Of a DNA stretch of 38,301 nt, positions 2,054 through 38,301 are shown one piece after another; positions within the stretch are counted from its first letter, which is position 1; every line of letters starts with the position of its first letter. This DNA is from an uncultured Bacteroidales bacterium (lineage in GTDB: Bacteria > Bacteroidota > Bacteroidia > Bacteroidales > JAUNSR01). The stretch is taken from contig CAMTOJ010000002.1 of assembly GCA_947074145.1 (NCBI GenBank), positions 104,742 to 143,042 of the forward strand, written 5' to 3'. The position numbers and the translations under genes are program-made. The notes under the pieces are model-generated. The model searched no databases and had not been told where the DNA came from. It saw only the letters and a program-made list of their open reading frames with translations.

Positions 2054-2067
2054 AAATCTATATCATT

Positions 2068-3270
2068 ATGAATATTGATACTTTTTTTTATGAAATTATG
2101 AATTCACATAACAAAGTTGTAATCATCGTTGATGCAATATTGTTCCTTTTATTTATAATTTCAGTCTTATATCTATTTATATTTTCTATGGCATCATTAA
2201 GTAGTGCTGAGAATAAATATCCCAAAGCAAAGATTAATCACAACTTTATAATACTCTACCCGGTATTTAAGGGTGAATCTATAATAATAGAATCTGTAAA
2301 ATCTTTTTTGCGACAGGAATATCCTGTAGATAGATATAAAATAATTACTGTTATCGATGAAACAATGCAAGAAGAAATTCAAACATTGAATGATATGAAT
2401 ATAATAACAATACCTATTGATACCCAATCTATTTCAAAAGGTATTGCATTGAAACACGCTGTAGAGTTAATTGATTATAGATCATTAGATTGTGATGTCG
2501 TTGTAGTTCTTGATGCTGATAATGATGTTGATTCAGATATGCTTCAAAAGATAAACGATGCTTATTATTCTGGTTGCGATGCTGTTCAGACACATCGAAT
2601 TGCCAAAAAAAGAGAAACTCGTGTAGCAGTTTTAGATGCCGTCAGCGAAGAGATAAACAATTCTATTTTCAGAAAAGGACATACTGCTTTAGGTTTTTCC
2701 TCGGCCTTAATAGGATCAGGAATGGCATTCGATTATAAACTATTTGTAGAATGTATTAATTCTTGCTCATTGTTAGGTTTTGATAAACAGATGGAGCGGA
2801 TTTTATTGAGTAATAATTTATACATCGAATACCTTGAAACAGTGTTTACGTATGATGAAAAAGTTGATAATAAAAGAGGATTTTATGATCAAAGGAGTCG
2901 CTGGATGGCTTCTCATATTTATAATCTTTTGAATGGAATTTTTACACTCCCTACAGCCATTGTAAAAGGAAAATGGGATTATTGTGATAAATTATTTCAA
3001 TGGATGATGCCGCCTAGGTTATTACTTTTTGGATTTATAATTCTCATATCGTCATTTTTTACAATTTACGATTGGGTATTATCAATCAAATGGTGGATAT
3101 TATTCTTCACATTATGTATGACGTTTATTGTGGCTATACCTAATTATTTAGTTGACCATAAATTAAAAGATGCATTGCGAGGTATACCTTCAGTTTTTAT
3201 TCTAATGATAATCGGAGTTCTAAGAATAAGAAGAAGTGGCGAAAATGTGATACAACGATTAAGAGAATAA
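2068..3270 (+). CDS. Membrane-anchored family 2 glycosyltransferase, paralogue 1 of 3
   Basis: From the ATG at 2068 this is a 400-residue GT2 enzyme. An in-frame TTG at 2050 overlaps the previous stop but is less likely. Layout: one N-terminal membrane helix (about 18-42), a GT-A catalytic domain (about 60-290) and two or three C-terminal helices. Sugar-nucleotide-binding and catalytic motifs are visible: DADN near 149-152 and QRSRW near 275-279, the Q(Q/R)xRW signature of processive synthases such as BcsA and hyaluronan synthase. A block SEEINNSIFR near 193-202, followed by GFSSALIGSG, is shared almost word for word with the genes at 4512 and 9590. It probably adds a sugar at the cytoplasmic membrane face during repeat-unit assembly, or forms polymer; donor and acceptor cannot be read from sequence. 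Confidence 0.83.
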   Translation: MNIDTFFYEIMNSHNKVVIIVDAILFLLFIISVLYLFIFSMASLSSAENKYPKAKINHNFIILYPVFKGESIIIESVKSFLRQEYPVDRYKIITVIDETMQEEIQTLNDMNIITIPIDTQSISKGIALKHAVELIDYRSLDCDVVVVLDADNDVDSDMLQKINDAYYSGCDAVQTHRIAKKRETRVAVLDAVSEEINNSIFRKGHTALGFSSALIGSGMAFDYKLFVECINSCSLLGFDKQMERILLSNNLYIEYLETVFTYDEKVDNKRGFYDQRSRWMASHIYNLLNGIFTLPTAIVKGKWDYCDKLFQWMMPPRLLLFGFIILISSFFTIYDWVLSIKWWILFFTLCMTFIVAIPNYLVDHKLKDALRGIPSVFILMIIGVLRIRRSGENVIQRLRE

Positions 3271-3303
3271 AAGAACAAGAATTAATATAACAAGTTTATC
3301 GAT

Positions 3304-4437
3304 ATGAAAATAGCAATAGAAGCTCAGCGCATATTTCGCAAAAATAAGCACGGAATGGATTTCGTTGCTCTTGAGTCTATAAAAGAACTTCAGAAAATAG
3401 ATAAAAAAAATCAGTATTATATTCTTGTTGCACCGGGAGAAGATAAGTGTCTGAAAGAAACCGGCAATTTTAAGATAATAGAATTTGGATCTACTTTCTA
3501 TCCTTGTTGGGAACAGTTTAACCTACCTCGTGAATTGAAAAAGATTAAACCCGATATATTACATTGTACGAGTAATACAGCTCCCTTCTTTTGCAGTGTC
3601 CCACTTATACTTACTTTACATGATATAATTTTTCTTGAGCCTCGTGGCTCAAAAAATAAATCTTTATACCAAAACCTGGGATGGTATTATAGAAAATTGA
3701 TAGTACCAAAGATTTTACCAAAATGTAATAAAATCATAACGGTTTCTTCCTTTGAGTGTAAAAGGATTAAGGAGTCTCTAAAGTTGTCAGACGATATGAT
3801 CATGTATATATACAATGGTTTTAATAATCATTTTACAATGATGGAAGATGTTGATTATTCAGTTACAAAAAAATATATTGATTCGGAAAAATATCTATTT
3901 TTCTTAGGCAATACCGATCCTAAAAAGAATCTTGAAAGAACAATAGATGCATATAATATATATAACAGTAGATCTACAAAGAAACTTCCTCTTTTAATAG
4001 CTGATCTTGATAATAAGATTCTGGATTCTTTGTTGAAGGATAAAGATTTGGAATATCTTAAATCCCAGATAACTTGTGTGAAATATATTGACAATAAGGA
4101 TCTGACTTATATTTATAATAAAGCATCTATCTTTTTATATCCTTCTCTTCGCGAAAGTTTCGGGATTCCTATTCTTGAATCAATGGCATGTGGTACCCCT
4201 GTTATTGCCGGAAATACATCATCAATGCCTGAGGTTATTGGTGATAATGGAATATTGGCTGATCCTTTCAATTCCGAAGATATTGCATCTAAAATTCTTT
4301 TGTTGGAAAATAATAACGATTTATACGACAAAATCAGATCATATGGATTAGAACGTGTGAAGAGTTTTTCATGGAAAAATACAGCGGAAAATCTAATAAA
4401 AGTTTATACAAGTATATATGATTTAAATAAAAAATAA
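3304..4437 (+). CDS. Family 4 glycosyltransferase (GT-B fold)
   Basis: The 377-residue product starts MKIAIEAQRIF and has the two-domain GT-B layout of GT4 enzymes. The N-terminal half contains HCTSNTAPFF and LTLHDIIF. The C-terminal nucleotide-sugar domain contains FLGNTDPKKNLERTIDA and the E-x7-E region RESFGIPILESMACGTP near 282-298, followed by PVIAGNTSSMPEV. GT4 enzymes are retaining transferases, often using GDP-mannose, UDP-GlcNAc or UDP-glucose; the donor here is not predictable. The gene lies 33 bases after the first GT2 paralogue and in the same direction, so it is likely co-transcribed and builds one linkage of the polysaccharide repeat unit. Confidence 0.88.
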   Translation: MKIAIEAQRIFRKNKHGMDFVALESIKELQKIDKKNQYYILVAPGEDKCLKETGNFKIIEFGSTFYPCWEQFNLPRELKKIKPDILHCTSNTAPFFCSVPLILTLHDIIFLEPRGSKNKSLYQNLGWYYRKLIVPKILPKCNKIITVSSFECKRIKESLKLSDDMIMYIYNGFNNHFTMMEDVDYSVTKKYIDSEKYLFFLGNTDPKKNLERTIDAYNIYNSRSTKKLPLLIADLDNKILDSLLKDKDLEYLKSQITCVKYIDNKDLTYIYNKASIFLYPSLRESFGIPILESMACGTPVIAGNTSSMPEVIGDNGILADPFNSEDIASKILLLENNNDLYDKIRSYGLERVKSFSWKNTAENLIKVYTSIYDLNKK

Positions 4438-4511
4438 TTTATTATTTGAAAAATGAAACTAAATATGTAATATTGTTAGATATTTAATGCTTGTTAAAAT
4501 TCACTCATATT

Positions 4512-5675
4512 ATGACTTTTGTTTGCGTGCTAGACCACCTTATTTTATTATTTTTTGCAATTCAGGCAATTTACCTTTTAGTATTTGCAGTAGCTTCGAA
4601 GTTTTCACATAGAAATTACTTAAAATATACAAATTGCGATCATAAACGAATAGCAGTTTTGATACCTGCGTATAAAGAGGATTCAGTTATTTTGGAATGT
4701 GTTATGTCATGTTTAAATCAGGATTATAATAAAGATAATTATGACGTAATTGTAATCTCTGATAAAATGAAAGAGTCCACTAATACCAATTTAGAATCTC
4801 TGCCTATTATACTACATAAGGTATCATTTGAAAATAGTACTAAAGCAAAATCCTTAAATTTTTCTTTAAGCAAACTTGAAAACTATGATTATGCATTGAT
4901 TTTAGATGCGGACAATGTAATAGGTAATAATTTCCTCAGAGATCTAAATACTGCGTTTGCCAATACTAAAGCTCCTATAATTCAGGCTCACCGAAAAGCA
5001 AAAAATATAAATAATGATATGGCATTTCTTGATGCTGTGAGTGAAGAGATAAATAATAGTATTTTCAGATTAGGACATGTGAATCTTGGTTTCTCAGGCG
5101 CCTTAATTGGCTCGGGAATGGCTTTTGAATTTAATTTATTAAAAGAGGAACTTGAAAAGATTAATGCAATTGGAGGATTCGATAGAGCTCTTGAGTTGAC
5201 AATGTTTAAATTAAAAAAGAAAATAGCCTATATCGATAATCTGGAACTTTTGGATGAAAAAATTCAAACATATAACAATTTTGCACGTCAGCGAAAACGC
5301 TGGATGTCAGCACAGTTGCATTATTTGACAGAGTTTATCCCTGAATTACCCAAACAACTACGTCAAAGAAATAAAGATTTCATAAATAAGTTCTATCAAC
5401 AATTATCTCTACCAAGATTATTATTATTAGGAATATCTTTTATTATTTCATCCCTATATAGTTTTTTTGATTTAAACATGTCGATAAAGTGGTGGATAGT
5501 CTTTCTTATTATAAGTTTATCTTTATTTTTAGCTATACCTCAAAAATATGTTTCAAGAAAGCTATTTTGTTCGATCATAAAAGTTCCAATAGTTTTCTAT
5601 ATGATGTTTATTAATCTATTCTCATTAAAAGGAGCCAATAAGACATTTATTCATACTAAACATGGTGTTAAATAG
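4512..5675 (+). CDS. Membrane-anchored family 2 glycosyltransferase, paralogue 2 of 3
   Basis: From the ATG at 4512 the product is 387 residues. A TTG at 4491 would add seven residues with no support, and the ATG at 4487 is out of frame. It has the same layout as the genes at 2068 and 9590: one N-terminal helix (about 6-28), a GT-A domain and C-terminal helices. Motifs are IPAYKED near 51-57, DADN near 132-135, SEEINNSIFRLGH near 176-188, GALIGSGMAF and QRKRW near 260-264. All residues expected for an active inverting GT2 are present. It is clearly a duplicated relative rather than an unrelated GT2, and has diverged enough to suggest a different donor or acceptor. Confidence 0.84.
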   Translation: MTFVCVLDHLILLFFAIQAIYLLVFAVASKFSHRNYLKYTNCDHKRIAVLIPAYKEDSVILECVMSCLNQDYNKDNYDVIVISDKMKESTNTNLESLPIILHKVSFENSTKAKSLNFSLSKLENYDYALILDADNVIGNNFLRDLNTAFANTKAPIIQAHRKAKNINNDMAFLDAVSEEINNSIFRLGHVNLGFSGALIGSGMAFEFNLLKEELEKINAIGGFDRALELTMFKLKKKIAYIDNLELLDEKIQTYNNFARQRKRWMSAQLHYLTEFIPELPKQLRQRNKDFINKFYQQLSLPRLLLLGISFIISSLYSFFDLNMSIKWWIVFLIISLSLFLAIPQKYVSRKLFCSIIKVPIVFYMMFINLFSLKGANKTFIHTKHGVK

Positions 5676-5788
5676 TTGTCTAAGACGATGATTTATAATA
5701 CTTTTATTTTTGTGTACTGCTATATTTTAATAACTTAAAGATATTATCGGTTCTTACAAGCTAATTACTTGAACAAAAATTATAATAT

Positions 5789-6997
5789 ATGGAAAATATT
5801 ATTTCTAACAAAAATTTCGTTTTTACCGGAAACCAACCATGGGATATCCCAATAGGGTCTAATGCCAAAGATATCGCATTAGAGGTATCGAAGAATAATA
5901 GAGTTTTATATATTAATACTCCATTAGATATTATTACATATTATAAGTCAGATAATATTCAGGAAAATATAGTTAGACGATCAATTGTAAGAAATAAATC
6001 GAATTATGTAAAAAAGATAAATGAGAACCTTTTTACAGTAGATTTGCCATTTACTATTCTTCCAATTAATTCAATTCCGGATGGAAAGATCTATGATTTT
6101 TTTAATAAGCTAAATAATAAGAAGATATATTCTTTTGTAAATAAGATAATTAAAGAACTTAATTTTGAAGACCATATTCTTTTTATCGACAATGATTTTT
6201 ATAGAAGTTTTTATGCTAAAGAATATTTGAAATCAAAGTTTTCAATTTATTACAGAAGAGATAATTTCCGTAGCCCATTTTGGTTAAAACATTGTCTACG
6301 TTTTGAAAAAGAGATATGTAAGAATTCCGATATTGTATTATCAAATTCAGAAGAATTATCTGAATATTCAATTCAATATCAACCTAAAACCTATTGTATA
6401 GGACAGGGTGTAGATTTGTCAAACTATTCAATAAAAACCAATTACGAAAGACCTTCCGATTTAATTAATATAACAGGGCCAATAATTGGATATGCAGGCA
6501 TGTTAACTGCAAAACGATTGGACTTGAAACTAATATATGATTTAGCTGTATATTTTGATAAGATAAATTTTGTTTATGTAGGTCCTAAAGATGAAGAATT
6601 TTCAAAACATGATATCAATAATTTGAAAAATGTACATTTCTTGGGTCATAAAGATATAAAAGAGATTCCGGCTTATATTTCAAATTTTGATATCTGTATA
6701 AATCCTCAGCTAATCAATGAGGTAACTATAGGTAATTATCCCCGCAAGATAGATGAGTATCTTGCATTAGGTAAACCTATTGTAGCTACCAATACCCGTA
6801 CGATGAATATTTTTAAAGACTATTGCTATAATTGTGATAATATAGAAGACTATATAGATGCAATAAAAGCTATTTTATATAACAAACAGGAGCTTGGAAC
6901 TCCTGATGAAAAATTAAAATTTGCATTCTCGCATACGTGGGAAAACAGTGTGGGATTATTATATAAATATATTATTGAGAATATAAATAGTAAGTAA
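5789..6997 (+). CDS. GT4-like glycosyltransferase
   Basis: The 402-residue product starts at the ATG at 5789. The N-terminal half holds FTGNQPWDIPIGSNAKDIA and NNRVLYINTP, typical of GT-B enzymes that begin by binding the acceptor. A hinge follows, with ITGPIIGYAGMLTAKRLDLKL (the short Rossmann start of the C-terminal domain, written here in part) and NYPRKIDEYLALGKPIVATNT near 315-335, where the conserved acidic residue contacts the nucleotide-sugar. It resembles the TuaH/EpsF-like branch of GT4 in order of motifs. It sits 113 bases after the second GT2 paralogue and its stop is directly followed by the ATG of the acyltransferase gene, so these two are translated together. The linkage formed is unknown. 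Confidence 0.83.
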   Translation: MENIISNKNFVFTGNQPWDIPIGSNAKDIALEVSKNNRVLYINTPLDIITYYKSDNIQENIVRRSIVRNKSNYVKKINENLFTVDLPFTILPINSIPDGKIYDFFNKLNNKKIYSFVNKIIKELNFEDHILFIDNDFYRSFYAKEYLKSKFSIYYRRDNFRSPFWLKHCLRFEKEICKNSDIVLSNSEELSEYSIQYQPKTYCIGQGVDLSNYSIKTNYERPSDLINITGPIIGYAGMLTAKRLDLKLIYDLAVYFDKINFVYVGPKDEEFSKHDINNLKNVHFLGHKDIKEIPAYISNFDICINPQLINEVTIGNYPRKIDEYLALGKPIVATNTRTMNIFKDYCYNCDNIEDYIDAIKAILYNKQELGTPDEKLKFAFSHTWENSVGLLYKYIIENINSK

Positions 6998-7621
6998 ATG
7001 AGTATATTATTTAAACTGAAGAATTATAAAAATTTACGTCCATTTCTAATATGGTTAATTACTCCCAAAAAAAGTCCAAGACCTCGTCTATGGATTAGAT
7101 GGTTTATAAATCCTTTTATATATAAAATAGGTAGGGGCGCAGATATTCATTATATGAGATCACGCCTAGATCTTTTTCCTTGGCACAGATTTGAATTGGG
7201 AAAAAAAGGTATTATTGAAGATTTCGCCACAATCTCTAATGGAGCCGGAGATTTAATATTAGGTGATAACTGCAGAATAGGAATTGGTTCGGTAGTTCTT
7301 GGTCCTGTAACAATGAAATCCGGATGTGGCACTGGTCAGAACGTATTTATTGCCGGATTCAATCATGGATATAAGGATGCAACCCAAAATTCAAAACATC
7401 AAGAACTCGACCGTCGTCCTGTATTTATTGATGAAGATACGCATATTGGTTCTAACTCAGTAATTGTAGCGGGTGTTAAAATTGGAAAAAGATGTCAGAT
7501 TGGAGCAGGGAGTGTGGTCACTAAAGATATTCCTGATTATTCAATTGTCGCAGGTAATCCAGCTCGGATATTAAAACGATTTGATTTTGAAAAAAATGAA
7601 TGGGTAAAGGTAAAATATTAA
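6998..7621 (+). CDS. Hexapeptide-repeat (left-handed beta-helix) O-acyltransferase
   Basis: This 207-residue protein belongs to the WbbJ/LacA-like acyltransferase group. Repeats of the type [LIV]-G-x4 run through the C-terminal two thirds (LGDNCRIGIGSVVLG, DTHIGSNSVIVAGVKIG, IGAGSVVTKDIPDYSIVAGNPA). The loop FIAGFNHGYKD near 115-125 carries the likely catalytic His, and the closing AGNPARILK motif is complete. Such enzymes usually transfer an acetyl group from acetyl-CoA to a sugar hydroxyl. In this locus the likely role is O-acetylation of a repeat-unit sugar or lipid-linked intermediate. The ATG follows the previous stop codon with no gap. Confidence 0.88.
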   Translation: MSILFKLKNYKNLRPFLIWLITPKKSPRPRLWIRWFINPFIYKIGRGADIHYMRSRLDLFPWHRFELGKKGIIEDFATISNGAGDLILGDNCRIGIGSVVLGPVTMKSGCGTGQNVFIAGFNHGYKDATQNSKHQELDRRPVFIDEDTHIGSNSVIVAGVKIGKRCQIGAGSVVTKDIPDYSIVAGNPARILKRFDFEKNEWVKVKY

Positions 7622-7631
7622 TAATGTTATA

Positions 7632-8564
7632 ATGAACTATAGAAATTTTGCAGATTTAAATGAAACGATATTAAAAAGACTACATATTATTCCTCGAGAT
7701 ATAGACTTAGTTGTGGGAATTCCCAGAAGTGGAATGATTCCTGCAAATCTTTTGGCTTTATACTTAAATAAACCTTTTACCGATTTAGAATCTTTTATTA
7801 ACGGACACATTTATAAGGCGGGAGAACGACAACAGTTTTTTGATAATAGTGAGATACGTAATGTTCTTATAGTTGATGATAGTCTGGCTTCGGGAAATGC
7901 GTTAAACAAAAGCAAAGCAAAACTTGTTAAGCATGAACAAGTTTACAATATAAAATATGCTGTTGTATATACCATTCCGGGGAAAGAGAAATCTGTAGAT
8001 TTTTATTTCGACACAGTGCCTTTGCCACGATATTTTCAGTGGAACATATTAAATCATACTATACTTGAAAAAGCTTGTTTCGATATTGATGGTGTTCTTT
8101 GTGTAGATCCCTTACCTGAACAAAACGATGATGGTGATAAATACCGCGAATTTATTTTGAATGCAAAACCATTATTTATTCCGGGAGCCAAGATTGGCTC
8201 TCTTGTAACTTCCAGACTTGAGAAATATAGAAAAGAAACAGAAATATGGTTAGATAAAAATAATATTAAATATGACAAATTGATAATGCTGGATCTTCCG
8301 GATATGAGGGCCAGGCAAAAAGCTAACTGTCATGGATCATTTAAAGCATCAGAATACATAAAAGATAAATACATGTTATTTATTGAAAGTGAAAAAAGAC
8401 AGGCCGTTGAAATAAACAAAATAACCTCAAAGCCGGTTTTATGTACTGCAGACTTTAGCATGATCTTTGAGCATCAGTCAATAATATATAATGTTAAAAG
8501 TGGACAATATTTGCCTTTTCTTAGAAATATTCTATTGAAAATTAGAGATAAAATCAGAAAATAA
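7632..8564 (+). CDS. Phosphoribosyltransferase-HAD fusion protein
   Basis: The 310-residue protein joins two enzyme-like halves. Residues about 20-125 are a type I phosphoribosyltransferase: a GIPRSG loop at 29-34 and the PRPP-binding motif VLIVDDSLASG at 78-88. Residues about 145-275 look HAD-like: KACFDIDGVLC at 147-157 with two Asp in motif I, LVTSR at 191-195 as motif II, and a final segment LFIESEKRQA in place of the usual acidic motif IV. It sits 10 bases after the acyltransferase and is surrounded by glycosyltransferases, so its substrate may be a sugar phosphate or nucleotide precursor of the polysaccharide rather than a purine. A ribosyl-5-phosphate transfer followed by dephosphorylation would fit the two domains; that is inference. 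It has no membrane segment. Confidence 0.75.
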   Translation: MNYRNFADLNETILKRLHIIPRDIDLVVGIPRSGMIPANLLALYLNKPFTDLESFINGHIYKAGERQQFFDNSEIRNVLIVDDSLASGNALNKSKAKLVKHEQVYNIKYAVVYTIPGKEKSVDFYFDTVPLPRYFQWNILNHTILEKACFDIDGVLCVDPLPEQNDDGDKYREFILNAKPLFIPGAKIGSLVTSRLEKYRKETEIWLDKNNIKYDKLIMLDLPDMRARQKANCHGSFKASEYIKDKYMLFIESEKRQAVEINKITSKPVLCTADFSMIFEHQSIIYNVKSGQYLPFLRNILLKIRDKIRK

Positions 8565-8658
8565 TTATTTTTAATCCTTAATTATATTAACTAATGACTT
8601 CTCTTTAGAATGATATTAACAGGAAAAAATAACTGAATGATTAAATTTTTAATATATC

Positions 8659-9570
8659 ATGATAAATAAAGAATTTAATCTAAATGTAAACCATTATGTA
8701 TCAATCGTCACGGTCAATTATAATGGATTAAAAGATACATTGTTATTGTTGGAATCTCTAAAACAATATAATACTTATCCATCTGAAATTATTGTTGTTG
8801 ATAATGGATCTAAAGTAAATGAGGCAAAAAAAATAAAAGAAACGTATCCTGAGATTATATGTATCAGAAGTGATAAAAATCTTGGATTTGCAGGAGGAAA
8901 TAATTTAGGCATTAAAATAGCAAAAGGGGATGCGATATTTTTTATTAATAATGATGCCGAAATTCTTGACGATGGAATACATAAAATGATAGATTCTTTA
9001 TTTTCTAATGATGAAATAGGAGCCTTATCACCCAAAATAAAATTTTTTCATCCTCCCCAAAATATTCAATTTGCCGGTTATACTAAAATGTCAAAAGTGA
9101 CAATGAGGAATTTTTTAATCGGTTTTGAACAACAAGATCAGGAAAAATACAATAATAGAAAAGAAACATATTTCTTGCATGGCGCTGCAATGATAGTCAA
9201 GAAAAAAGTAATAGATCTAATAGGTGGAATGCCTGAAATCTATTTTTTATATTATGAAGAGCTTGATTGGTGCCAAAAGATAAGAAGTGCCGGATATAAA
9301 CTTATTTATGAACCAGGATTTACTGTATATCATAAAGAAAGTCAAAGCACAGGACAAAACAGCCCTTTTAAAACTTATTATTTAGTAAGAAATCGGCTAT
9401 TATATGCATTTCGAAATATAAAAGGTGGAAATAAATATATTTCTATTCTTTATCAGATGTTAATAGCCAGTCCCGTTCACTTTATTAAATTTTCAATAAA
9501 GGGAAATTTTAAAAATGCATATTCCATAATCAAAGGAACTATAAGTTTTTTTGTAATGAACAAATATTGA
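8659..9570 (+). CDS. Family 2 glycosyltransferase, rhamnosyltransferase-like
   Basis: The 303-residue soluble GT2 begins VSIVTVNYNGLKDTLLLLESL near residue 14, with IIVVDNGS near 44-51, NLGFAGGNNLGI near 75-86 and the DxD-equivalent INNDAE near 95-100. Later HGAAMIVKK and the acceptor-domain motif YYEELDWCQKIRSAGYKL are present. This pattern is typical of WbbL/RfbF-type enzymes, many of which are rhamnosyltransferases, and a complete dTDP-rhamnose set is encoded just downstream. The rhamnose donor is an inference from context. A gap of 94 bases separates it from the phosphoribosyltransferase gene and 19 bases from the next GT2. Confidence 0.86.
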   Translation: MINKEFNLNVNHYVSIVTVNYNGLKDTLLLLESLKQYNTYPSEIIVVDNGSKVNEAKKIKETYPEIICIRSDKNLGFAGGNNLGIKIAKGDAIFFINNDAEILDDGIHKMIDSLFSNDEIGALSPKIKFFHPPQNIQFAGYTKMSKVTMRNFLIGFEQQDQEKYNNRKETYFLHGAAMIVKKKVIDLIGGMPEIYFLYYEELDWCQKIRSAGYKLIYEPGFTVYHKESQSTGQNSPFKTYYLVRNRLLYAFRNIKGGNKYISILYQMLIASPVHFIKFSIKGNFKNAYSIIKGTISFFVMNKY

Positions 9571-9589
9571 TTCCAATAAATTTAAATTC

Positions 9590-10756
9590 ATGATTATGTA
9601 TAATTTCCTTGATATAATCTTTTATTTTCTTTTATTAATTCCACTTTTATACTATTTAATATTTTCTTTTTCCGGCAAAATAAAAACGAATGTCGTAAGG
9701 GCTCATATTGCTCGAAAACATCTAAACTATGCCATAATAATTCCAGCTTATAAAGAAGATAATGTAATATTAAATACTCTGAATCATTTAATAAAACAGA
9801 ATTACAACAAAGATAATTATACAATATTTGTTGCTGCCGATTCTATGGGAGAGGCAATAATGGAAAAGATTTCACATTTAGATATAACTATAATTAATAT
9901 AAATGAGGAAGTAAGTAGCAAAGCAAAAGCTCTTATTACAACAATGGACTCAATTGAAGGAAATTACGATGGTGTTATAATACTTGATGCTGATAATAAT
10001 GTAAACTCATGTTTTTTAAGTGATATTGATGATATATTCGATGGTAAAAGTGTATTGCAATTACATAGAACATCAAAAAACTGCGATTCCCAAATATCTA
10101 TGTTGGATAGTATAAGCGAGGAGATTAATAATTCCATATTTCGTAAAGGCCATACAAACATAGGTTTTCCTTCTGCATTAATTGGATCGGGAATAGTATT
10201 CCCTTTTATATGGTTTAAAAACAATGTGAAAAATCTCAAAACATTTGCCGAAGATAAGGAACTTGAACTCTTCTGTATTCAGGATAAATTAAATATAGAC
10301 TACATAGAAGATATATATGTATATGATGAAAAGATCAATAATAAAACGTCTTTTGCACGACAAAGACATCGTTGGATAAACACACAATATCTGATGTTTA
10401 TTAATGCATTTAAGATTATCCCTTTTCGTGATATTATTAGCAATATTGCCTTGTTAGATAAGCTTTTTCAGTGGATTTTACCTCCACGCCTTATTATATT
10501 TTGTTTTAATATCATTTTCCCTTTAATATTCCTAATATTATATCCATCTTCTACATCATATAAATGGATTCTTAATATTGTATTGATATTTGGAATAATC
10601 ATATTATCTGTGCCTTGTGAATATTTGAAAGAAAAAAGATTTTATACCTCATTGTTAAAAATACCATTACTTTTGTTAATAACCATAATGAATATATTCA
10701 AGATAAAATTGAAAATGAATAATTTTGGCGCTACAAATCATGGTTTAAATCAATAA
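9590..10756 (+). CDS. Membrane-anchored family 2 glycosyltransferase, paralogue 3 of 3
   Basis: This 388-residue protein (a second in-frame ATG at 9596 is also possible) repeats the design of the genes at 2068 and 4512: an N-terminal helix (about 7-27), a GT-A domain with IPAYKED near 51-57, DADN at 133-136, SEEINNSIFRKGH near 176-188, SALIGSG and QRHRW at 258-262, then C-terminal helices. Catalytic residues are intact. It is placed directly before the rhamnose genes (5-base gap to rfbC), so it is likely transcribed with them. It probably forms a further sugar linkage of the same polysaccharide; the donor is unknown. Confidence 0.84.
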   Translation: MIMYNFLDIIFYFLLLIPLLYYLIFSFSGKIKTNVVRAHIARKHLNYAIIIPAYKEDNVILNTLNHLIKQNYNKDNYTIFVAADSMGEAIMEKISHLDITIININEEVSSKAKALITTMDSIEGNYDGVIILDADNNVNSCFLSDIDDIFDGKSVLQLHRTSKNCDSQISMLDSISEEINNSIFRKGHTNIGFPSALIGSGIVFPFIWFKNNVKNLKTFAEDKELELFCIQDKLNIDYIEDIYVYDEKINNKTSFARQRHRWINTQYLMFINAFKIIPFRDIISNIALLDKLFQWILPPRLIIFCFNIIFPLIFLILYPSSTSYKWILNIVLIFGIIILSVPCEYLKEKRFYTSLLKIPLLLLITIMNIFKIKLKMNNFGATNHGLNQ

Positions 10757-10761
10757 TAAAT

Positions 10762-11301
10762 ATGAAAATAGAAAAATGTAATATCGATGGTTTATATATA
10801 ATCAAACCAACTATTTTTGGTGATGATAGGGGATATTTTTGTGAAACATATAAAAAAGATCTATTTGAAAAAGAGATAGGTCCGATTCAATGGGTTCAGG
10901 AAAATCAATCCAAGTCTACCAAAGGGGTACTTCGAGGGTTACATTTTCAAAAAGGAGATAAATCACAAGCTAAATTAGTAAGTGTGGTAAAAGGAAGGGT
11001 ATTTGATGTGGCTGTTGATTTAAGGAAAGAATCCCCAACATTTGGGAAATACTTTACTATAGAGTTGACAGAAGATAATTTATTTCAATTGTTTATTCCA
11101 CGAGGCTTCGCACATGGATTCCTTGTTCTCTCTGAAGATGCTATTTTCCAATATAAAGTTGATAATGAATATTCTCCGCGGGATGAGGGTTCTTTAAAAT
11201 GGAATGATAAAACGGTAAATATAAACTGGCCTGAAATGGATAAATATCATTTATCAGAAAAAGATTTACTTGCACCCGAGTTAGGAGATTATGCATTTTA
11301 A
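10762..11301 (+). CDS. rfbC: dTDP-4-dehydrorhamnose 3,5-epimerase
   Basis: The 179-residue cupin-fold protein has normal length for RmlC. It epimerises C3 and C5 of dTDP-4-keto-6-deoxyglucose in the cytoplasm, third step of dTDP-L-rhamnose synthesis. Recognisable segments are FGDDRGYFCETY near 19-30, QENQSKSTKGVLRGLHFQ near 45-62 with the catalytic His, VVKGRVFDVAVDLR near 75-88 and FIPRGFAHGFLVLSE near 112-126. It is the first of four consecutive rhamnose genes, here in the order C-B-D-A rather than the enteric B-D-A-C. Confidence 0.96.
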   Translation: MKIEKCNIDGLYIIKPTIFGDDRGYFCETYKKDLFEKEIGPIQWVQENQSKSTKGVLRGLHFQKGDKSQAKLVSVVKGRVFDVAVDLRKESPTFGKYFTIELTEDNLFQLFIPRGFAHGFLVLSEDAIFQYKVDNEYSPRDEGSLKWNDKTVNINWPEMDKYHLSEKDLLAPELGDYAF

Positions 11302-11339
11302 AAAAAAAAGAAAATAACAATTCTGTTATAATATAATGT

Positions 11340-12545
11340 ATGAAAGATAAAATACTATTGGTAACCGGAGCTGCCGGATTTATAGGTGCTAATTTTGTAA
11401 AATATATATTATCTAAATATGTCGGTGTTAAGGTGATTATTCTTGATAAGCTTACTTATGCGGGTAATATAGGTACTATTACAAATGAAATTGATGGCGA
11501 TAAAGTAGTATTCATAAAAGGTGATATTGGTAATCAAGAGCTGCTTGATCATATATTCAACTTATATGATATAGATTACGTTGTAAACTTTGCTGCCGAA
11601 AGTCATGTTGATCGCTCAATTGAAAATCCTCAATTATTTCTGCAAACAAATATATTAGGTACTCAGAATCTTCTCGATTGTACAAAAAAGGCATGGATAA
11701 AAGGAAAAGATAAACATGGATATCCTATATATAAAGAAGGAAAAAAGTATCTTCAGGTTTCTACGGATGAAGTTTACGGATCTTTGATTAAAGAATTCGA
11801 AACACCTCAAACTCTTGATATACTTGACGATGATGTCAAAAATATTGTAAAAGGCAGAAAGGATCTTAAGACATATGGGAAAAGTTTCTTTAAGGAAACC
11901 AACAACCTTGATCCTCGCTCTCCGTACTCAGCAAGTAAAACAAGTGCCGATCATATTGTAATAGCCTATCATGAAACATATCATCTTCCTATCAATATAA
12001 CAAGATGTTCTAACAATTATGGCCCATATCATTTTCCGGAGAAATTGATTCCTTTAATTATAAAGAACACTCTTGAAGGTAAGTCTCTTCCTGTTTATGG
12101 GAAAGGTGATAATGTAAGAGATTGGCTTTATGTTGAAGATCATGCAAAAGCGATAGATCTTGTTCTTCAAAAAGGTAGAGAAGGTGAAGTCTATAATGTT
12201 GGGGGATACAATGAGGAAACCAACATAAATATTGTGAAATTAATAATCCGTACCATAAAGGAATTAATGGAAACTAATCCACAATATCATACCTCTCTCA
12301 AGACCGACTTAAACCAAATTAATGATTCTCTTATTACATATGTCGGTGACAGATTAGGTCATGATATGAGATATGCTATTGATCCTACCAAGATTGTAAA
12401 AGAGCTCGGATGGTATCCTGAAACTCCATTTGAAGATGGTATCAGAAAGACTGTGATATGGTATTTGGAAAACCAGGAATGGGTTGAAAGTGTTGTAAGT
12501 GGAGATTATCAAAAATATTATGATCAAATGTATTTAAATCGATGA
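11340..12545 (+). CDS. rfbB: dTDP-glucose 4,6-dehydratase
   Basis: This 401-residue short-chain dehydrogenase/reductase converts dTDP-glucose to dTDP-4-keto-6-deoxyglucose. It shows the NAD-binding GAAGFIGANF near 10-19, FAAESHVDRSIENP near 83-96, VSTDEVYGSL near 140-149 with the Thr-Asp-Glu catalytic group, YSASKTSADH near 198-207 (YxxxK) and NNYGPYHFPEKLIP. It is longer than enteric RmlB (about 355) because of an insert between the STDEVYG and YSASK motifs (about residues 153-193), a form I associate with Bacteroidetes. Its stop overlaps the start of rfbD by 4 bases. Confidence 0.96.
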   Translation: MKDKILLVTGAAGFIGANFVKYILSKYVGVKVIILDKLTYAGNIGTITNEIDGDKVVFIKGDIGNQELLDHIFNLYDIDYVVNFAAESHVDRSIENPQLFLQTNILGTQNLLDCTKKAWIKGKDKHGYPIYKEGKKYLQVSTDEVYGSLIKEFETPQTLDILDDDVKNIVKGRKDLKTYGKSFFKETNNLDPRSPYSASKTSADHIVIAYHETYHLPINITRCSNNYGPYHFPEKLIPLIIKNTLEGKSLPVYGKGDNVRDWLYVEDHAKAIDLVLQKGREGEVYNVGGYNEETNINIVKLIIRTIKELMETNPQYHTSLKTDLNQINDSLITYVGDRLGHDMRYAIDPTKIVKELGWYPETPFEDGIRKTVIWYLENQEWVESVVSGDYQKYYDQMYLNR

Positions 12546-13402
12546 ATATACTTGTAACAGGAGGTAATGGTCAGCTTGGCAGATCTTTATCTAAAATTTC
12601 AAATAAATTTCCCAATCATAAATTTTTCTTTACTGATCTTCCGGAATCCGATATTACAAAAGAGGAAACAATATCTGAAATTGTAAAGAAAAATGATATT
12701 AATGCTATAATCAACTGTGCTGCATATACTGCCGTTGATAAAGCTGAAAGTGAACCTGATATCGCCCGCCAAGTCAACGTTATCGGACCCAGAGTCCTTG
12801 CTCGAATATGTAAGAAATATGATCTTAAATTTATACATATCTCCACAGATTATGTTTTTGACGGAGAGTCAAATGTGCCATTGTTAGAAACAGATTCATG
12901 TGACAATCCTATTGGTGTTTACGGACAAACAAAAAGAGATGCAGAGGAGATGATAGCACTTGCAGGAATTGATAGTGTAATAATCCGTACTGCATGGTTA
13001 TATTCAGAATTTGGAAATAATTTTCTTAAAACAATGCTTCGTCTTGCCCAAGACAGAAATGAGATTGGTGTTATTTTTGATCAGATAGGTTCTCCTACTT
13101 ATGCTCCTGATTTAGCATGCGCCATTATTAATATTCTTGATTTGGGTATAAAGAATGGTTGCGAACTTTATCACTATTCAAATGAAGGTATATGTAGTTG
13201 GTATGACTTTGCAAAAGAGATATTCGATATAAGTAACATCGATATAGAAGTTAAACCACTTCATACATATGAATATCTTACTCCTGCAAAACGCCCAAAA
13301 TACAGTGTGCTTGACAAAAGCAAAATTAAGGCATTAGGTATTCAAGTTCCATATTGGAAAATATCCTTAAAGACCTGTCTGAACGAACTTAATAAGCAGT
13401 AA
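12542..13402 (+). CDS. rfbD: dTDP-4-dehydrorhamnose reductase
   Basis: The 286-residue SDR enzyme carries out the last reduction to dTDP-L-rhamnose using NAD(P)H. It has [10 protein letters not shown] near 7-16, [14 protein letters not shown] near 60-73, [10 protein letters not shown] near 98-107, the catalytic YGQTKRDAE near 128-136 and [15 protein letters not shown] near 146-160, all in the family order and of normal length. The start ATG lies within the rfbB stop (ATGA), so the two are translationally coupled. Confidence 0.96.
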
Positions 13403-13412
13403 AAAAATATTT

Positions 13413-14276
13413 ATGAAAGGAATTATTCTTGCCGGAGGATCTGCAACACGTTTATATCCATTATCAAAAGCAATATCAAAGCAGATTATGCCGGTTTATG
13501 ATAAACCGATGATATATTATCCTTTATCAACGTTAATGCTTGCCGGGATAAAAGAAATACTTATTATTTCCACTCCAAGAGATTTACCTATGTTTAAAGA
13601 TCTTTTGGGAGACGGGAGTAGAATTGGTATGAAATTTTCTTATGTTATTCAGGAAAAGCCCAATGGTTTGGCTCAGGCTTTTGTCCTTGGTGCAGATTTC
13701 CTTAATGGAGATTCAGGTGCTCTTATATTGGGTGACAATATGTTCTATGGACAAAACTTCTCTATAATGCTTAGAAAAGCAGCATCCCTAAAAACCGGAG
13801 CTTGTATATTCGGTTATTATGTAAAAGATCCTTCTGCATATGGAGTAGTTGATTTTGATAAAGATGGTAAGGTTGTTTCTATAGAAGAAAAACCTGAAAA
13901 ACCGAAATCTAATTATGCTGTTCCGGGACTTTATTTCTATGACAACACTGTTGTTGAAAAAGCCTCGAAGATTAAACCTTCAAAACGAGGAGAGTATGAA
14001 ATTACTGATCTCAACAATTTATATCTTGAAGAGGGTACGTTAAAGGTTGAACTTTTCGGACGCGGTTTTGCATGGTTGGATACAGGTAATTGTTCCTCCC
14101 TTCTTGAGGCAGGAAATTTTGTCGAAACAATCCAAAAACGTCAGGGTTTTTATATTGCTTGTATTGAAGAGATTGCTTGGCGAAATGGTTGGATTGACAA
14201 TTCCAGACTTTTAGAATTGGCCAAAGAGTGCGAAAAAACAGATTATGGTAAATATTTGAAGGATTTACTAAACTAA
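13413..14276 (+). CDS. rfbA: Glucose-1-phosphate thymidylyltransferase
   Basis: The 287-residue nucleotidyltransferase makes dTDP-glucose from glucose-1-phosphate and dTTP, the first step of the rhamnose pathway. It has the signature [20 protein letters not shown] (1-20) with the activating Arg, [27 protein letters not shown] near 109-116 with the metal-binding Asp, and [20 protein letters not shown] near 156-175. Length is normal. It closes the plus-strand polysaccharide operon, 10 bases after rfbD; the next gene is convergent. Confidence 0.97.
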
Positions 14277-33704: not shown

Positions 33705-34907
33705 TTAGTTTTCTGAATATTCGACCAATTCTCTCTCTTCGGTTAACATGCCAACACCATATATTTCGTCATGCTGACTTTTATCAAGACCAATAACTTC
33801 ACTTTTCTCTGATACTCTTATTGGAATCAATTTATTTGTAATCCAGTAAAGAGAGTATGTTACGACAAATGAGTAAGCTATAACAATACCTACTGCAAGT
33901 ACATGATTAAGGAAACTGTGGAAATATGATATTTCATTTGTTTCATAAACAAATATACCTGTAAGTATTGTTCCTAATATACCCCCCACACCATGTGTTG
34001 GAAATACATCAAGTGCATCATCTACGTTGGTTTTGTTTTTCCAATGTACAGCCATGTTACATACAATTGTTGTAATAAATGCAATAGTTATACTTTGTCC
34101 AACTGAAACCCATCCTGCAGAAGGAGTAATGGCAACAAGTCCGACAACTGCTCCGATTGCAGCTCCCATTGCAGAAGGTTTCTGTCCTCTAAGGCAATCG
34201 AATACAACCCAAACTATCATTGCCGTAGCAGAAGCGGTATTTGTATTTAAGAAAGCTTTTACTGCGATGCTGTCGGCAGCAAGTGAAGAACCTCCATTGA
34301 AACCAAACCAACCTAACCATAACATACCTGCTCCTAAAAGAACAAATGGAATGTTAGCGGGTTTATGATTTTTTGCTTTATAACGTTCTCCAAGGAATAT
34401 GGCTCCGGCAAATGCGGCAACACCTGAAGATGCATGTACTACGATACCTCCGGCAAAGTCTTTTACAAACATTTTAGCAAAAAATCCATCAGGATGCCAT
34501 GTCCAGTGAGCAAGCGGACAATAAACGAATATGCAGAATAAAATCATAAATACCAGATAACCAGAAAATCTTACTCTTTCAGCAAATGATCCTGTTATAA
34601 GGGACGGTGTTATGATAGCAAATTTCATTTGAAATAATGCATAAAGTGCAAGAGGTATGGTAAGACCAAGAGCTCCAAGGTTTTCATCTCCCTGAGGAAT
34701 ATGTGCTCCTACATCTTTAAACATGAAATAGGTTGTAGGATCTCCAATAAATCCACCTATACTATCTCCGAATGCAAGAGAAAATCCGAAAATAACCCAT
34801 ATTACACTTATTATTCCCATTGCTATAAAGCTCTGAAGCATTGTAGAGATAATATTTTTGGCTCTAACCATTCCACCATAGAAGAATGATAGACCGGGGG
34901 TCATCAT
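33705..34907 (-). pseudogene. amtB: Ammonium transporter, 5'-truncated by insertion
   Basis: The remaining 400 codons encode an Amt-family channel from the MMTPGLSFFYGGMVRAKN segment onward, with the pore histidines in GGIVVHASSG and FPTHGVGGILG and a complete C-terminal tail. The family normally begins further upstream, with the start of the first membrane helix and a leader. Here homology stops a few codons before the ATG at 34907: upstream in frame only NKFQQTIIFVL is open before a TAG, with no start codon. The break falls where the recombinase element begins. If translated from 34907, the product would lack most of helix M1 and probably would not fold as a working transporter; the original promoter is also gone. 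A terminator follows the 3' end. Confidence 0.85.
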
Positions 34908-34924
34908 TAGAACAAAAATTATTG

Positions 34925-34960
34925 TTTGTTGGAACTTATTCTACCTATAACTATATTTGC
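34925..34960 (+). promoter_or_regulatory. Promoter for the serine recombinase
   Basis: TATATTTGC at 34952-34960 is an exact TAnnTTTGY box. A -33 TTGG lies at 34929-34932, 19 bases upstream (TTTG at 34925-34928 is an alternative). The -33 region is within a few bases of the amtB junction. The ATG of the recombinase is at 34991. Confidence 0.65.
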
Positions 34961-34990
34961 AGTATAGATAAACAAAACCATTAGATCAAT

Positions 34991-36661
34991 ATGAAAAGAG
35001 TTATTGCATATCTTAGAGTTTCAACCGAACAACAGGATACAGAAAGACAATTAAACCAAATTAAAAACTATTGCTTTGATAATGATTATTCAATAGTTAA
35101 AGTAATAGAGGATAAAGTAACAGGTACTATAAGTAACAGAGAAGGTTTAATTGAATTGTTAAGGTGTAATAGTTCAGTTGCAGATATGGTTATTGTTTCG
35201 GAACAGTCAAGGTTTAGCCGTGAAAAGAATATAATGAGTGTACTATCAAGCATTACAAATGTTTTATATAATGGTTTAGATTTAATGTTCTTAGATAATC
35301 CAAATAAGGTTTATGTTGCTTTTCAGGATTTAGATATTAATGAACTACTCTTATTAATAATGGGTGCTTATGCAAGTAATATAGAAAAGGATAAGATAAT
35401 ATATAGGTTAAAGAGTGGTAAAGATGCAATCTTTGAAAAGGATTGTTTCGCTCAGGTTGATAATAATGCCGTGCCTTTTGGATTTAAAAGTATTCCCAAC
35501 CCTTTATATAATGGTATTGATAAAATAAGTAAGAATATTATTGTTAAGAATGATGTTGAGGTTATTGTTATAAAAGAAATATTTGATTTATATGTAAATC
35601 ATAATCTAAGCCTTAATAAGATATGTATTTATTTAAAATCTAAAGGTTATAACTTTGTTCCTTCTGTTTTAAAAAGTATAATGGAGAATAAGATATATAA
35701 AGGTGAGAGATGGCGAAAAGGGAAACTCATTCATTATATAGAACCTATTATTGAGCCTGAATTATTTAATATGGTATCTATAAAGGCAAAGGAGAATATA
35801 CTAATTAAAGATAATTCTACTAAGTATATAAACCCCTATAAGGGTATTATTAAATGCAGATGCGGAAGTAGTATGTATATTGCGGAGGGGAACAATAATA
35901 TACTTAGATATGCGTGCTTTGCACAGGCTAAAAAGAATTATAAAGAATGTAACAATACAGCCATTGGTAAAGATATAATTAATAAGGTTGTTAATAATGC
36001 ACTTAAAAGAACATCAACCTTTGAGTTATTCAATGAAAAGAATAATGAACATATAGAACAATTAAACAGGCAAATAGAGGTTAATAAAGAGATTATTAAA
36101 AGTAAATATATTATTGCATCCGAAATAGAAAATAAAATTAACAATACTATTAATGCAATATCAGAAACTGATATAAAACAGTTAAGGGACAGTTTGACAA
36201 TTAAATATAATACTCTTAATGAGGAACTATTAAATATAAATTCTGAAATAAAAACATTATCAAGTACTATTGATGAAATAAATAATAGAATAACATCTTT
36301 AAATATGAATAATATTGCATATAAAGAATATACTGAAACAGAATTAAAGGATATAGCAATTAAGATATTTGATAGTATTGTATATTATTCTTTCAACTCA
36401 TTAAAGGGTTGTATTCAATTAAACTTTAAGAATGGAATATCAATGTTATATGCAATTCGCAAAAATGGAGGTAAAAGAGTTGATGAAATGATATTAAGTT
36501 TACCTGATAGTTTTACATTTAATATAGAATATAATAAAATACAGGTCGAAGTTATGAAACCCGACATAATGAGTTTTAGTTTTAATAACTTTGAATGTAG
36601 ATATTATGATTTTAATGAATTGTTAATGTCTTTTGATTATAATGATTGGATTATTAACTAA
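34991..36661 (+). CDS. Large serine recombinase (integrase/resolvase family)
   Basis: The 556-residue protein has the three-part build of large serine integrases. The catalytic resolvase domain (about 1-140) has RVIAYLRVSTEQQDTERQ with nucleophile Ser11 and Arg8, and SEQSRFSREKN near 70-80 with the active-site Arg residues. A Recombinase DNA-binding domain (about 155-270; VPFGFK, NKIYKGERW) and a zinc-ribbon domain with Cys at about 289, 291, 309 and 320 follow. A long coiled coil spans about 350-445, as in integrases that use it to control synapsis. It should cut short attP/attB sites and integrate or excise the element. It starts about 70 bases from the broken amtB end, as expected for an integrase next to its attachment site. 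Confidence 0.93.
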   Translation: MKRVIAYLRVSTEQQDTERQLNQIKNYCFDNDYSIVKVIEDKVTGTISNREGLIELLRCNSSVADMVIVSEQSRFSREKNIMSVLSSITNVLYNGLDLMFLDNPNKVYVAFQDLDINELLLLIMGAYASNIEKDKIIYRLKSGKDAIFEKDCFAQVDNNAVPFGFKSIPNPLYNGIDKISKNIIVKNDVEVIVIKEIFDLYVNHNLSLNKICIYLKSKGYNFVPSVLKSIMENKIYKGERWRKGKLIHYIEPIIEPELFNMVSIKAKENILIKDNSTKYINPYKGIIKCRCGSSMYIAEGNNNILRYACFAQAKKNYKECNNTAIGKDIINKVVNNALKRTSTFELFNEKNNEHIEQLNRQIEVNKEIIKSKYIIASEIENKINNTINAISETDIKQLRDSLTIKYNTLNEELLNINSEIKTLSSTIDEINNRITSLNMNNIAYKEYTETELKDIAIKIFDSIVYYSFNSLKGCIQLNFKNGISMLYAIRKNGGKRVDEMILSLPDSFTFNIEYNKIQVEVMKPDIMSFSFNNFECRYYDFNELLMSFDYNDWIIN

Positions 36662-36677
36662 TATATATATATATTTG
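36646..36677 (+). promoter_or_regulatory. Promoter for the 94-residue gene
   Basis: TATATTTG at 36670-36677 matches the -7 box, with TTGG at 36646-36649 20 bases upstream. The pair resembles that of the recombinase promoter (TTGG, 19-20 bases, TATATTTG). The -33 part overlaps the end of the recombinase gene. Confidence 0.5.
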
Positions 36678-36716
36678 AAGTGTTAATTAATTTATAAACA
36701 ATTTAAAATTATAATT

Positions 36717-37001
36717 ATGGCAGTTACTAAAAATGCAAGTCTTAAAAAAGACATTAAGAGAGATGATGCACTAAGAATATTAGTTAATAAGTATGTAGCT
36801 TTTGAAGCTACTAAAGGTGCTTTAATAAGTAAAGGTTGGATTAAAGAAGAGCAATGCGAAAAGTTATTTAATTCACAACCAATTATAAAAGAATTAGAAG
36901 AAGAATTAAAGAAATATTGCAAGGTACTTAATACAGAAACTTCGGTTTCAGATAAAGTAGAGAATATTGATAGTGTTTTAAATGCCATTATGAATGAATA
37001 A
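36717..37001 (+). CDS. Small hypothetical protein of the element (94 aa)
   Basis: I do not recognise this family. The product is Lys/Glu-rich with no membrane helix, signal peptide or Cys cluster. A predicted helical stretch covers about 55-75 (IIKELEEELKKYCKVL), which could form a short coiled coil or dimer interface. It has a probable promoter of its own and is followed at once by a strong terminator, so it forms a single-gene unit right after the recombinase. That place is often taken by directionality factors, small regulators or antitoxins, but nothing in the sequence proves any of these. Confidence 0.72.
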   Translation: MAVTKNASLKKDIKRDDALRILVNKYVAFEATKGALISKGWIKEEQCEKLFNSQPIIKELEEELKKYCKVLNTETSVSDKVENIDSVLNAIMNE

Positions 37002-37027
37002 TAAACATCATTATTAAATACTCTATA

Positions 37028-37060
37028 AACCTTTATACTTAATTGTATAGAGGTTTTTTT
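37028..37060 (+). terminator. Intrinsic terminator after the 94-residue gene
   Basis: AACCTTTATAC (37028-37038) pairs with GTATAGAGGTT (37045-37055), 11 bp with one U-G wobble and a 6-base loop, followed by a T-run. Confidence 0.88.
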
Positions 37061-37184
37061 ATATGTATGAACTAAGACTATCATTTAAAAAGAGGTATTC
37101 ATATAATAGCCTTAAAATGCGAAATATGATGTTTTAGTTTTTAATAGTATATAATAATCAACCTACTATTTAGACTTATAATAA

Positions 37185-37201
37185 ATTGCAATTATTGCAA
37201 T
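37185..37201. promoter_or_regulatory. Double palindromic octamer ATTGCAAT
   Basis: Two copies of the self-complementary octamer ATTGCAAT stand one base apart (37185-37192 and 37194-37201), making a 17-base site that is both a direct and an inverted repeat. It resembles a tandem operator. Confidence 0.5.
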
Positions 37202-37280
37202 ATTTTTTATTTACTTACTATTTACTAATAAGACTATTATTAACCTTATATATGATACTTATATAGTGTTTTAGGTGGTG

Positions 37281-37505
37281 TTTTTGTGGCACATTTTTTT
37301 CGTATATATATAGAGGGTGTTTATTTTGTCTGTCAATTTTGGCGTATATATATAGATGGATATAATAATAAAATATTTTCATTTTTTTTACTTATATAAT
37401 AATCAATAATAAGATATATATAAGATTGATATAAACATTATATAGACATTATTACACTCTTTAAAATGGCTATTTTGTCAGCCATTTTTTCGGTATATAG
37501 ATATA
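37281..37505 (+). repeat. Three degenerate 34-bp direct repeats
   Basis: Units at 37281-37314, 37323-37356 and 37472-37505 align without gaps. They share TTTTGT in positions 2-7, CA near the centre followed by a T-rich tract, then a GTATATA core. Units 1 and 2 have identical final 14 bases (CGTATATATATAGA). Start-to-start distances are 42 and 149 bases. Confidence 0.65.
37463..37490 (+). terminator. Terminator-like hairpin in the third 34-bp repeat
   Basis: AAAATGGCT and AGCCATTTT form a 9-bp perfect stem with an 8-base loop that ends in a T-run. No annotated gene lies upstream within 400 bases, so it may end a small non-coding transcript. Confidence 0.5.
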
Positions 37506-37520
37506 CACATAATTCATAAT

Positions 37521-37534
37521 AAACAAATTTGTTT
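37521..37534. repeat. Perfect 14-bp palindrome
   Basis: AAACAAATTTGTTT is fully self-complementary, about 70 bases upstream of the 69-residue gene. It could be an operator for a dimeric regulator. Confidence 0.4.
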
Positions 37535-37550
37535 TAGTAGGTTAATATTA

Positions 37551-37575
37551 GGGTGTTGAGAAACACTCTTTTATT
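37551..37575 (+). terminator. GNRA-loop hairpin upstream of the 69-residue gene
   Basis: GGGTGTT and AACACTC pair over 7 positions (one G-U) around the tetraloop GAGA, then TTTTATTAT follows. It could be a terminator, an attenuator or the 3' end of a small RNA. Confidence 0.45.
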
Positions 37576-37604
37576 ATAACCTTAATGACTATCAACAATA
37601 ACCA

Positions 37605-37814
37605 ATGAAGACTTATAAACAATTAAAACAGGAAGCAAAAGAATACTATTCAAAATTATTAAAGGATAATAACCCACTAATAAAAGATAGTGTTATAGAT
37701 GAATTTAAAATATCAAATACAGAGGTTTATAAATATGCGAACCTAAAAGGATATAAAAGAATCAGAAAACAGATTAATAGTATTCGTAAATACTACTATA
37801 TAAAAGATAAATAA
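37605..37814 (+). CDS. Small basic hypothetical protein (69 aa), possible DNA-binding
   Basis: I do not recognise a family. The protein is strongly basic, rich in Lys and Tyr. The central part (about 28-52: VIDEFKISNTEVYKYANLKGY) has the spacing of a helix-turn-helix, and the C-terminus is a basic helix. This fits a small regulator or accessory DNA-binding protein of a mobile element, but is only suggestive. The next gene starts 25 bases after its stop, on the same strand, so the two are probably co-transcribed. Confidence 0.62.
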   Translation: MKTYKQLKQEAKEYYSKLLKDNNPLIKDSVIDEFKISNTEVYKYANLKGYKRIRKQINSIRKYYYIKDK

Positions 37815-37839
37815 CAATAACTATTAAATACAAATTACT

Positions 37840-38253
37840 ATGAAACAAATTGAAATCAAAACAGAAGACATTAAAAACATTACAGACAATGTAAATGAAT
37901 TATTACAACTTATTAATAATACAGAGTTTATTATTAGTCCTTCGGAACTAAAAACAATATTAAGTATTAATAACAATAACCTTTGGTGTGGTGGTGTAAA
38001 TAGCTTTATTATAGATGAAATTAAAGAAAGGCTAACAATAGTGTATATTAATGAAAAGATGGGTTTAAATCCTGAGGACATAACAGAGGAACTTTATAAA
38101 ATCTATGAGAATGTTATTAATAAGAAAGTAAAGAATCTAAACATATTAAAGAAAAGATCATATCATTTAAGCAATGCTTTTAAATATATCATACAGGACA
38201 ATACAGGCAAATATAAAATGATTGATAACTTTGATCAGGAAGTATTTAAGTAA
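37840..38253 (+). CDS. Hypothetical protein of the element (137 aa)
   Basis: Not recognised. The 137-residue product is soluble, rich in Ile, Asn and Lys, and mostly helical in appearance. It has a mid-protein NLWCGGVNSFIIDEIKERL segment (about 47-65) and a basic patch KKVKNLNILKKRSYHL near 95-110. No catalytic motif, signal peptide or membrane helix is visible. It follows the 69-residue gene in the same direction and its A+T-rich codon use matches the rest of the element. The stop is 48 bases from the window edge. Confidence 0.65.
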   Translation: MKQIEIKTEDIKNITDNVNELLQLINNTEFIISPSELKTILSINNNNLWCGGVNSFIIDEIKERLTIVYINEKMGLNPEDITEELYKIYENVINKKVKNLNILKKRSYHLSNAFKYIIQDNTGKYKMIDNFDQEVFK

Positions 38254-38301
38254 ACCGGAGCAAAACCGACCACCCCAATAATAAGAAAGAGCCAATTACA
38301 A

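Follow-up and report, generated by a model that had tools for sequence, protein, structure and literature searches.

Probable site-specific integration of a large serine recombinase element into the ammonium transporter gene amtB of an uncultured Bacteroidales bacterium

Why does an ammonium transporter gene lack its start directly beside a recombinase gene that reads away from it? The locus lies in a stretch of 38,301 nucleotides, here called the window, which covers bases 104742-143042 of contig C2 of an uncultured Bacteroidales bacterium (genome G000) and whose right end (38301) is the end of the contig. We consider it highly probable that the arrangement arose by site-specific integration of a mobile element into amtB, carried out by the adjoining large serine recombinase.

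The 3′ part of amtB occupies positions 33705..34919 on the minus strand, with an open reading frame of 400 amino acids (33705-34907) and homology to host sequence that continues to 34919. The frame is open from the ATG at 34907 (411 amino acids counting the codons before the first Met), and the in-frame sequence 5′ of this ATG runs for 11 residues to a TAG and contains no ATG, GTG or TTG. Comparison with profiles showed that the product matches positions 13-396 of 399 in Pfam Ammonium_transp and positions 14-403 of 406 in TIGR00836, a near-full coverage that omits approximately the first dozen positions, indicating that only the AmtB N-terminus is absent; in this family, the missing part corresponds to the start of the first membrane helix. 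The intact homologue in genome G003, from a sister species (public record CAMTOT010000028, uncultured Bacteroidales bacterium), encodes 451 amino acids and shares 93% identity with the window AmtB across the common part. Nucleotide local alignment of the two genes ends at 34919, a position that may be off by a few bases, and relative to the G003 gene 141 nt (47 codons) have been lost from the 5′ end. The ATG of the recombinase gene (34991) is located 72 bases from the cut, at a distance of 84 bases from the codon for the first Met left in the amtB frame, and the gene reads away from amtB. The original prediction, made from the sequence alone, of a late-starting minus-strand amtB with no start codon in the frame upstream and an outward-reading recombinase nearby was thereby confirmed; the truncation that it described is real, and its position is now placed more exactly, at 34919.

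The recombinase gene (34991..36661, plus strand) encodes a protein of 556 amino acids with Resolvase (PF00239), Recombinase (PF07508) and Zn_ribbon_recom (PF13408) domains, each above the Pfam cut-off, which is the architecture of large serine recombinases of the integrase type, and it matches the integrase family phrog_95 (E 1.5e-51). The residue S11, in an RVST motif, is invariant in 15 aligned proteins, the window recombinase included, and is presumably the catalytic serine. A protein search in which 7992 candidates were scored returned 17 entries including the query's own cluster, giving 16 other proteins with a best identity of 51%; the 11 first-listed of these (P0002-P0012) are 38-51% identical to the window protein (39% for P0010), and a genomic context was found for none of them. 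Relatives are rare within the order, being found at E <= 1e-60 in 3 of 393 sampled genomes, G000 included, at four loci. In viral contigs, alignment of the recombinase gave 50 loci with a best identity of 32%, three of which were inspected; the search with the recombinase alone gave no relatives among four matching stretches, and neither amtB nor the core pattern had any match there. Distant recombinases were present in 43 phage and 25 plasmid records, at 21-34% identity among the matches listed (20 each). The suggestion that the protein is not an integrase but a DNA invertase by which 5′ ends of amtB are exchanged is scarcely credible. Its best NCBIfam match is indeed the Mpi invertase family, but this match covers residues 4-93 only and scores 44.6 of the 272 bits set as the cut-off, the 556-residue length, Recombinase and Zn-ribbon domains and integrase PHROG all speak for the other class, and neither a second amtB 5′ end nor a second exact copy of the site was found in the assembly.

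The junction (34911..34926, no strand) resembles an attR site, with an inverted repeat (7 of 8 positions) whose centre, 34918|34919, we infer to be the crossover point; one half of the attachment site would thereby be known. An equally good dyad within 2 bases of the junction was seen in 37 of 10,000 shuffles, a figure obtained with the arm length and threshold chosen post hoc. Between the junction and the recombinase gene, the end of the element (34920..34990, plus strand) carries a TATATTTG box at 34952-34959. The same 8-mer precedes all four of the recombinase loci compared, in each case between junction and recombinase, at 32-39 bases from the ATG in three loci and at about 48 bases in that of genome G124, and it appeared by chance in 0.4-1.9% of shuffles per locus; we take it to resemble the Bacteroidetes -7 promoter element TAnnTTTG. 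In G000, the 19-base site has an exact match at the junction only, and allowing up to 3 mismatches gave 6 places, compared with 5 for a reversed control. A degenerate 20-base form of the site, with up to 2 mismatches, was found at 6 places in three of five genomes, namely the G000 junction, the two contig ends of genome G002 described below and three places with 2 mismatches. A near-match on contig C165 of G002 was rejected because, by eye, neither amtB nor a recombinase is present there.

The same site was then compared across relatives. The amtB starts examined came from a scan of public genomes that gave 592 relatives, the best 80 of which were used; this set was not thinned and includes a few near-identical sequences. 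Among these 80 loci, amtB is uninterrupted across the site in 79, the exception being a contig end in G002, and none has the same short AmtB without the element. Locus L104, from a Paludibacteraceae MAG and counted among the 79, had been considered as a further interrupted amtB and was dropped, as it appears to carry a one-base poly-T frameshift alone (10001 region), just after the conserved site and with nothing inserted, which is either a sequencing error or a pseudogene. The site encodes a strongly conserved stretch of the protein, TATIFVLMMTPGLSFF being present in 68 of the 80 loci, so that an integrase using it could, in principle, find hosts widely among the Bacteroidales.

The exception came from a sister species. 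Contig C192 of G002 (CAMTON010000192) carries the amtB 3′ half and has as its first base exactly the one that corresponds to 34919. The 5′ half, with the gene start, is located at the end of contig C127, and the last 55 bases of C127 recur without a difference as the opening 55 bases of C192. De Bruijn assemblers give contigs that adjoin at a branch of the graph an overlap of K bases. Comparison of contig ends in G002 (38 contigs taken, 10 consisting entirely of N left out, 28 compared) found two overlaps, both of exactly 55 bases, and contigs C2 and C99 of G000 likewise have an end of exactly 55 bases in common. As all of the overlaps are exactly 55 bases long, the G002 break has the look of a branch point in an assembly graph with K=55. 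The chance of a contig end falling at one named base in G002 is approximately 1 in 10,000 (about 410 ends from 205 contigs in 3.9 Mb, rounded). The G002 graph probably branches at the 55-mer that begins C192, although the branch could instead sit at the far side of this 55-mer. In the simplest, and likely, reading, the whole amtB and an alternative sequence joined at the same base coexist in the G002 population, which suggests, only indirectly, a mixture of empty and occupied sites. The G002 bin yielded neither this alternative sequence nor, in searches of which all but one had G000 as a positive control, a relative of the recombinase; both results count against integration. That the assembly of a sister species breaks at the same base of an otherwise whole gene suggests that insertion into amtB may recur and be reversible.

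This coincidence also bears on whether the junction in the window is an assembly chimera, in which an unrelated contig was fused to amtB. The G000 assembly is fragmented (106 contigs) and the contig ends in a repeat, both of which speak for such an artefact, but a chimera is not expected to coincide exactly with a break in the assembly of a second species, or to put an outward-reading recombinase at the short distance from the junction that is found in three relatives. We regard a chimera as very improbable.

If the junction was instead formed by integration, the amtB 5′ half should be located at the far end of the element. Neither the 5′ half nor the far end was found in the G000 assembly, which is 95% complete, and the contig stops at 38301, in a repeat 3.3 kb into the element. 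This result counts against integration. Absence of the 5′ half also speaks for an unclean event, in which an older insertion, or a deletion beside the integrase, had removed the amtB 5′ end permanently and left the gene as a dead remnant. The cut gene itself, however, shows no decay. It has no internal stop, and relative to G002 it has 19 residue differences with a dN of 0.039 and a dS of 1.77; by parsimony, at sites where two outgroups agree, there was 1 residue change on the window branch and 5 on the G002 branch. The lack of decay indicates that the insertion is likely to be recent or reversible. Together with a breakpoint at precisely the base where the G002 contig breaks, an intact recombinase and a dyad at the junction, it makes a dead remnant improbable.

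The sequenced part of the putative element amounts to 3.3 kb. Downstream of the recombinase gene, it contains three ORFs on the plus strand, which encode 94 amino acids (36717..37001; no family match), 69 amino acids (37605..37814; no significant family match) and 137 amino acids (37840..38253; no significant family match), the last codons of the third being inside a 55-base repeat (38247..38301, no strand). The 94- and 137-amino-acid ORFs had no match in phage records. The repeat is common to the ends of contigs C99 (55/55 bases) and C36 (53/55 bases), and the contig break is thus attributed to a multicopy sequence; the repeat probably belongs to the border of an insertion sequence or of some other multicopy sequence, and the element itself probably extends beyond position 38301. 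No terminase, portal or capsid gene was recognised in 34991-38301, which counts against integration, and no relaxase or mobilisation gene was recognised in the 3.3 kb. The element may be a prophage or a similar integrative element.

Three relatives of the window recombinase, in G124 (a genome of the same order), in G221 and on contig C52 of G000, are 28-33% identical to it, the C52 match spanning 208 residues only. At this level of identity, which counts against integration, these relatives support the habit of the group and not the amtB site itself. The relative in G124, at 28% identity, is located at one end of a tailed prophage on contig C21 (68.67-97.26 kb; loci L177 and L178) that carries terminase, portal and prohead protease genes and measures 28,592 bases (about 28.6 kb) from core to core. 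Both ends of this prophage are within a Cu-oxidase_4 (laccase-family) gene, which they split close to where it begins. When the flanks were joined at a CTTTG core, the open reading frame was restored, and the joined ends of the element formed an attP containing a perfect dyad of 20 bp. A dyad is likewise present in the restored attB, for which 6 of 2000 shuffles were equally good. A 10-bp AAATGTTGCG repeat was rejected as the G124 core, as the joined frame is wrong with it and right with CTTTG. The G221 recombinase lies directly beside a DMT_6 gene without a start (profile positions 39-104 of 104). A 12-bp direct repeat was tried as the G221 core and rejected, since the joined frame does not run on and the dyads are no better than those of shuffles. 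The relative on C52 (L121:2282-4404), which is the second large serine recombinase in G000, abuts a lipoprotein-like ORF of 117 amino acids that ends near the junction; this ORF had no match in Pfam, and we assume that it is perhaps the start of an M48 protease. For two of the three relatives, Pfam thus shows the adjoining gene to be cut, and both ends were found for one of the three; the far ends of the other two (G221 and C52) were not found. A terminase gene was also found beside the recombinase at L123, on a viral contig, and this locus is apparently a prophage.

The case for integration of a serine recombinase element into amtB, as put forward in the original prediction, is therefore supported by the uninterrupted gene in relatives, the sharp breakpoint, the G002 break at the same base and the G124 prophage with both ends in a conserved gene. 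In the proposed mechanism, the recombinase, as the putative agent of the insertion, would have recombined an attB within amtB with an attP immediately 5′ of the recombinase gene, with crossover predicted at 34918|34919. The other end of the element would then carry the amtB 5′ half, and the remaining AmtB, deprived of its N-terminus and promoter, would be inactive. Excision by the same recombinase, together with a directionality factor, would be predicted to restore amtB. Contig C57 of G000 encodes another Amt, full-length and 32% identical to the amtB product, and loss of amtB would therefore not by itself abolish ammonium transport. The original prediction is thus supported in part, the on/off switch for ammonium uptake that it raised being hypothetical at present. 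It is conceivable, but on present evidence unlikely, that amtB is a recurrent attachment site in the genus at which excision of a resident phage-like element acts as a reversible switch for one of two ammonium transporters, and that cells with and without the element share one population.

Insertion of serine recombinase elements within genes has precedents. In a survey of large serine recombinases (Durrant et al. 2022, PMC10083194), attB sites are grouped by the target genes that are disrupted. The window recombinase resembles those described there in its domain architecture, in the disruption of a conserved coding gene and in the location of the integrase beside the attachment site; it differs in its target, the terms 'amtB' and 'ammoni' being absent from the main text of the survey, and in the rarity of its relatives in the order (3/393 genomes, as above). 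Passages of PMC5704250 describe serine-recombinase IMEs that sit within genes and disrupt dispensable ones such as rumA. These are comparable to the present element in that the site is inside the gene and not at its end, and the gene is disrupted upon integration, whereas target and host are different and a mobilisation or relaxase gene was not recognised in the 3.3 kb seen here. In Listeria, as set out in passages of PMC8987985, a prophage splits comK, which is restored by excision (active lysogeny). The amtB locus is similar in that a gene in two parts would be restored by excision, but in this case excision is only predicted and a second full-length Amt is present in the genome. The tailed prophage of G124, from our own comparison, is like the present locus in that a conserved gene, split near its start, lies beside a related recombinase that reads away from it; it is distinguished by having both ends and phage genes, another target and a recombinase of low identity (28%). 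No report of amtB as an integration site was found in the open-access literature; where amtB is mentioned in passages of PMC3826726, PMC8725595 and PMC4174501, it appears only in other roles. Insertion of serine recombinases within conserved genes is thus known, and amtB appears to be a fresh target, with a hint of recurrence.

Should excision be regulated, one route of nitrogen uptake would come under the control of a mobile element. Together with the half site, the recombinase is also a candidate integration tool for the Bacteroidales, for which, to our knowledge, few large serine integrases have been described. At the opposite end of the window (1-14276), glycosyltransferase, polymerase-like and rhamnose-precursor-like genes occur in a run that, by eye, resembles a surface polysaccharide cluster.
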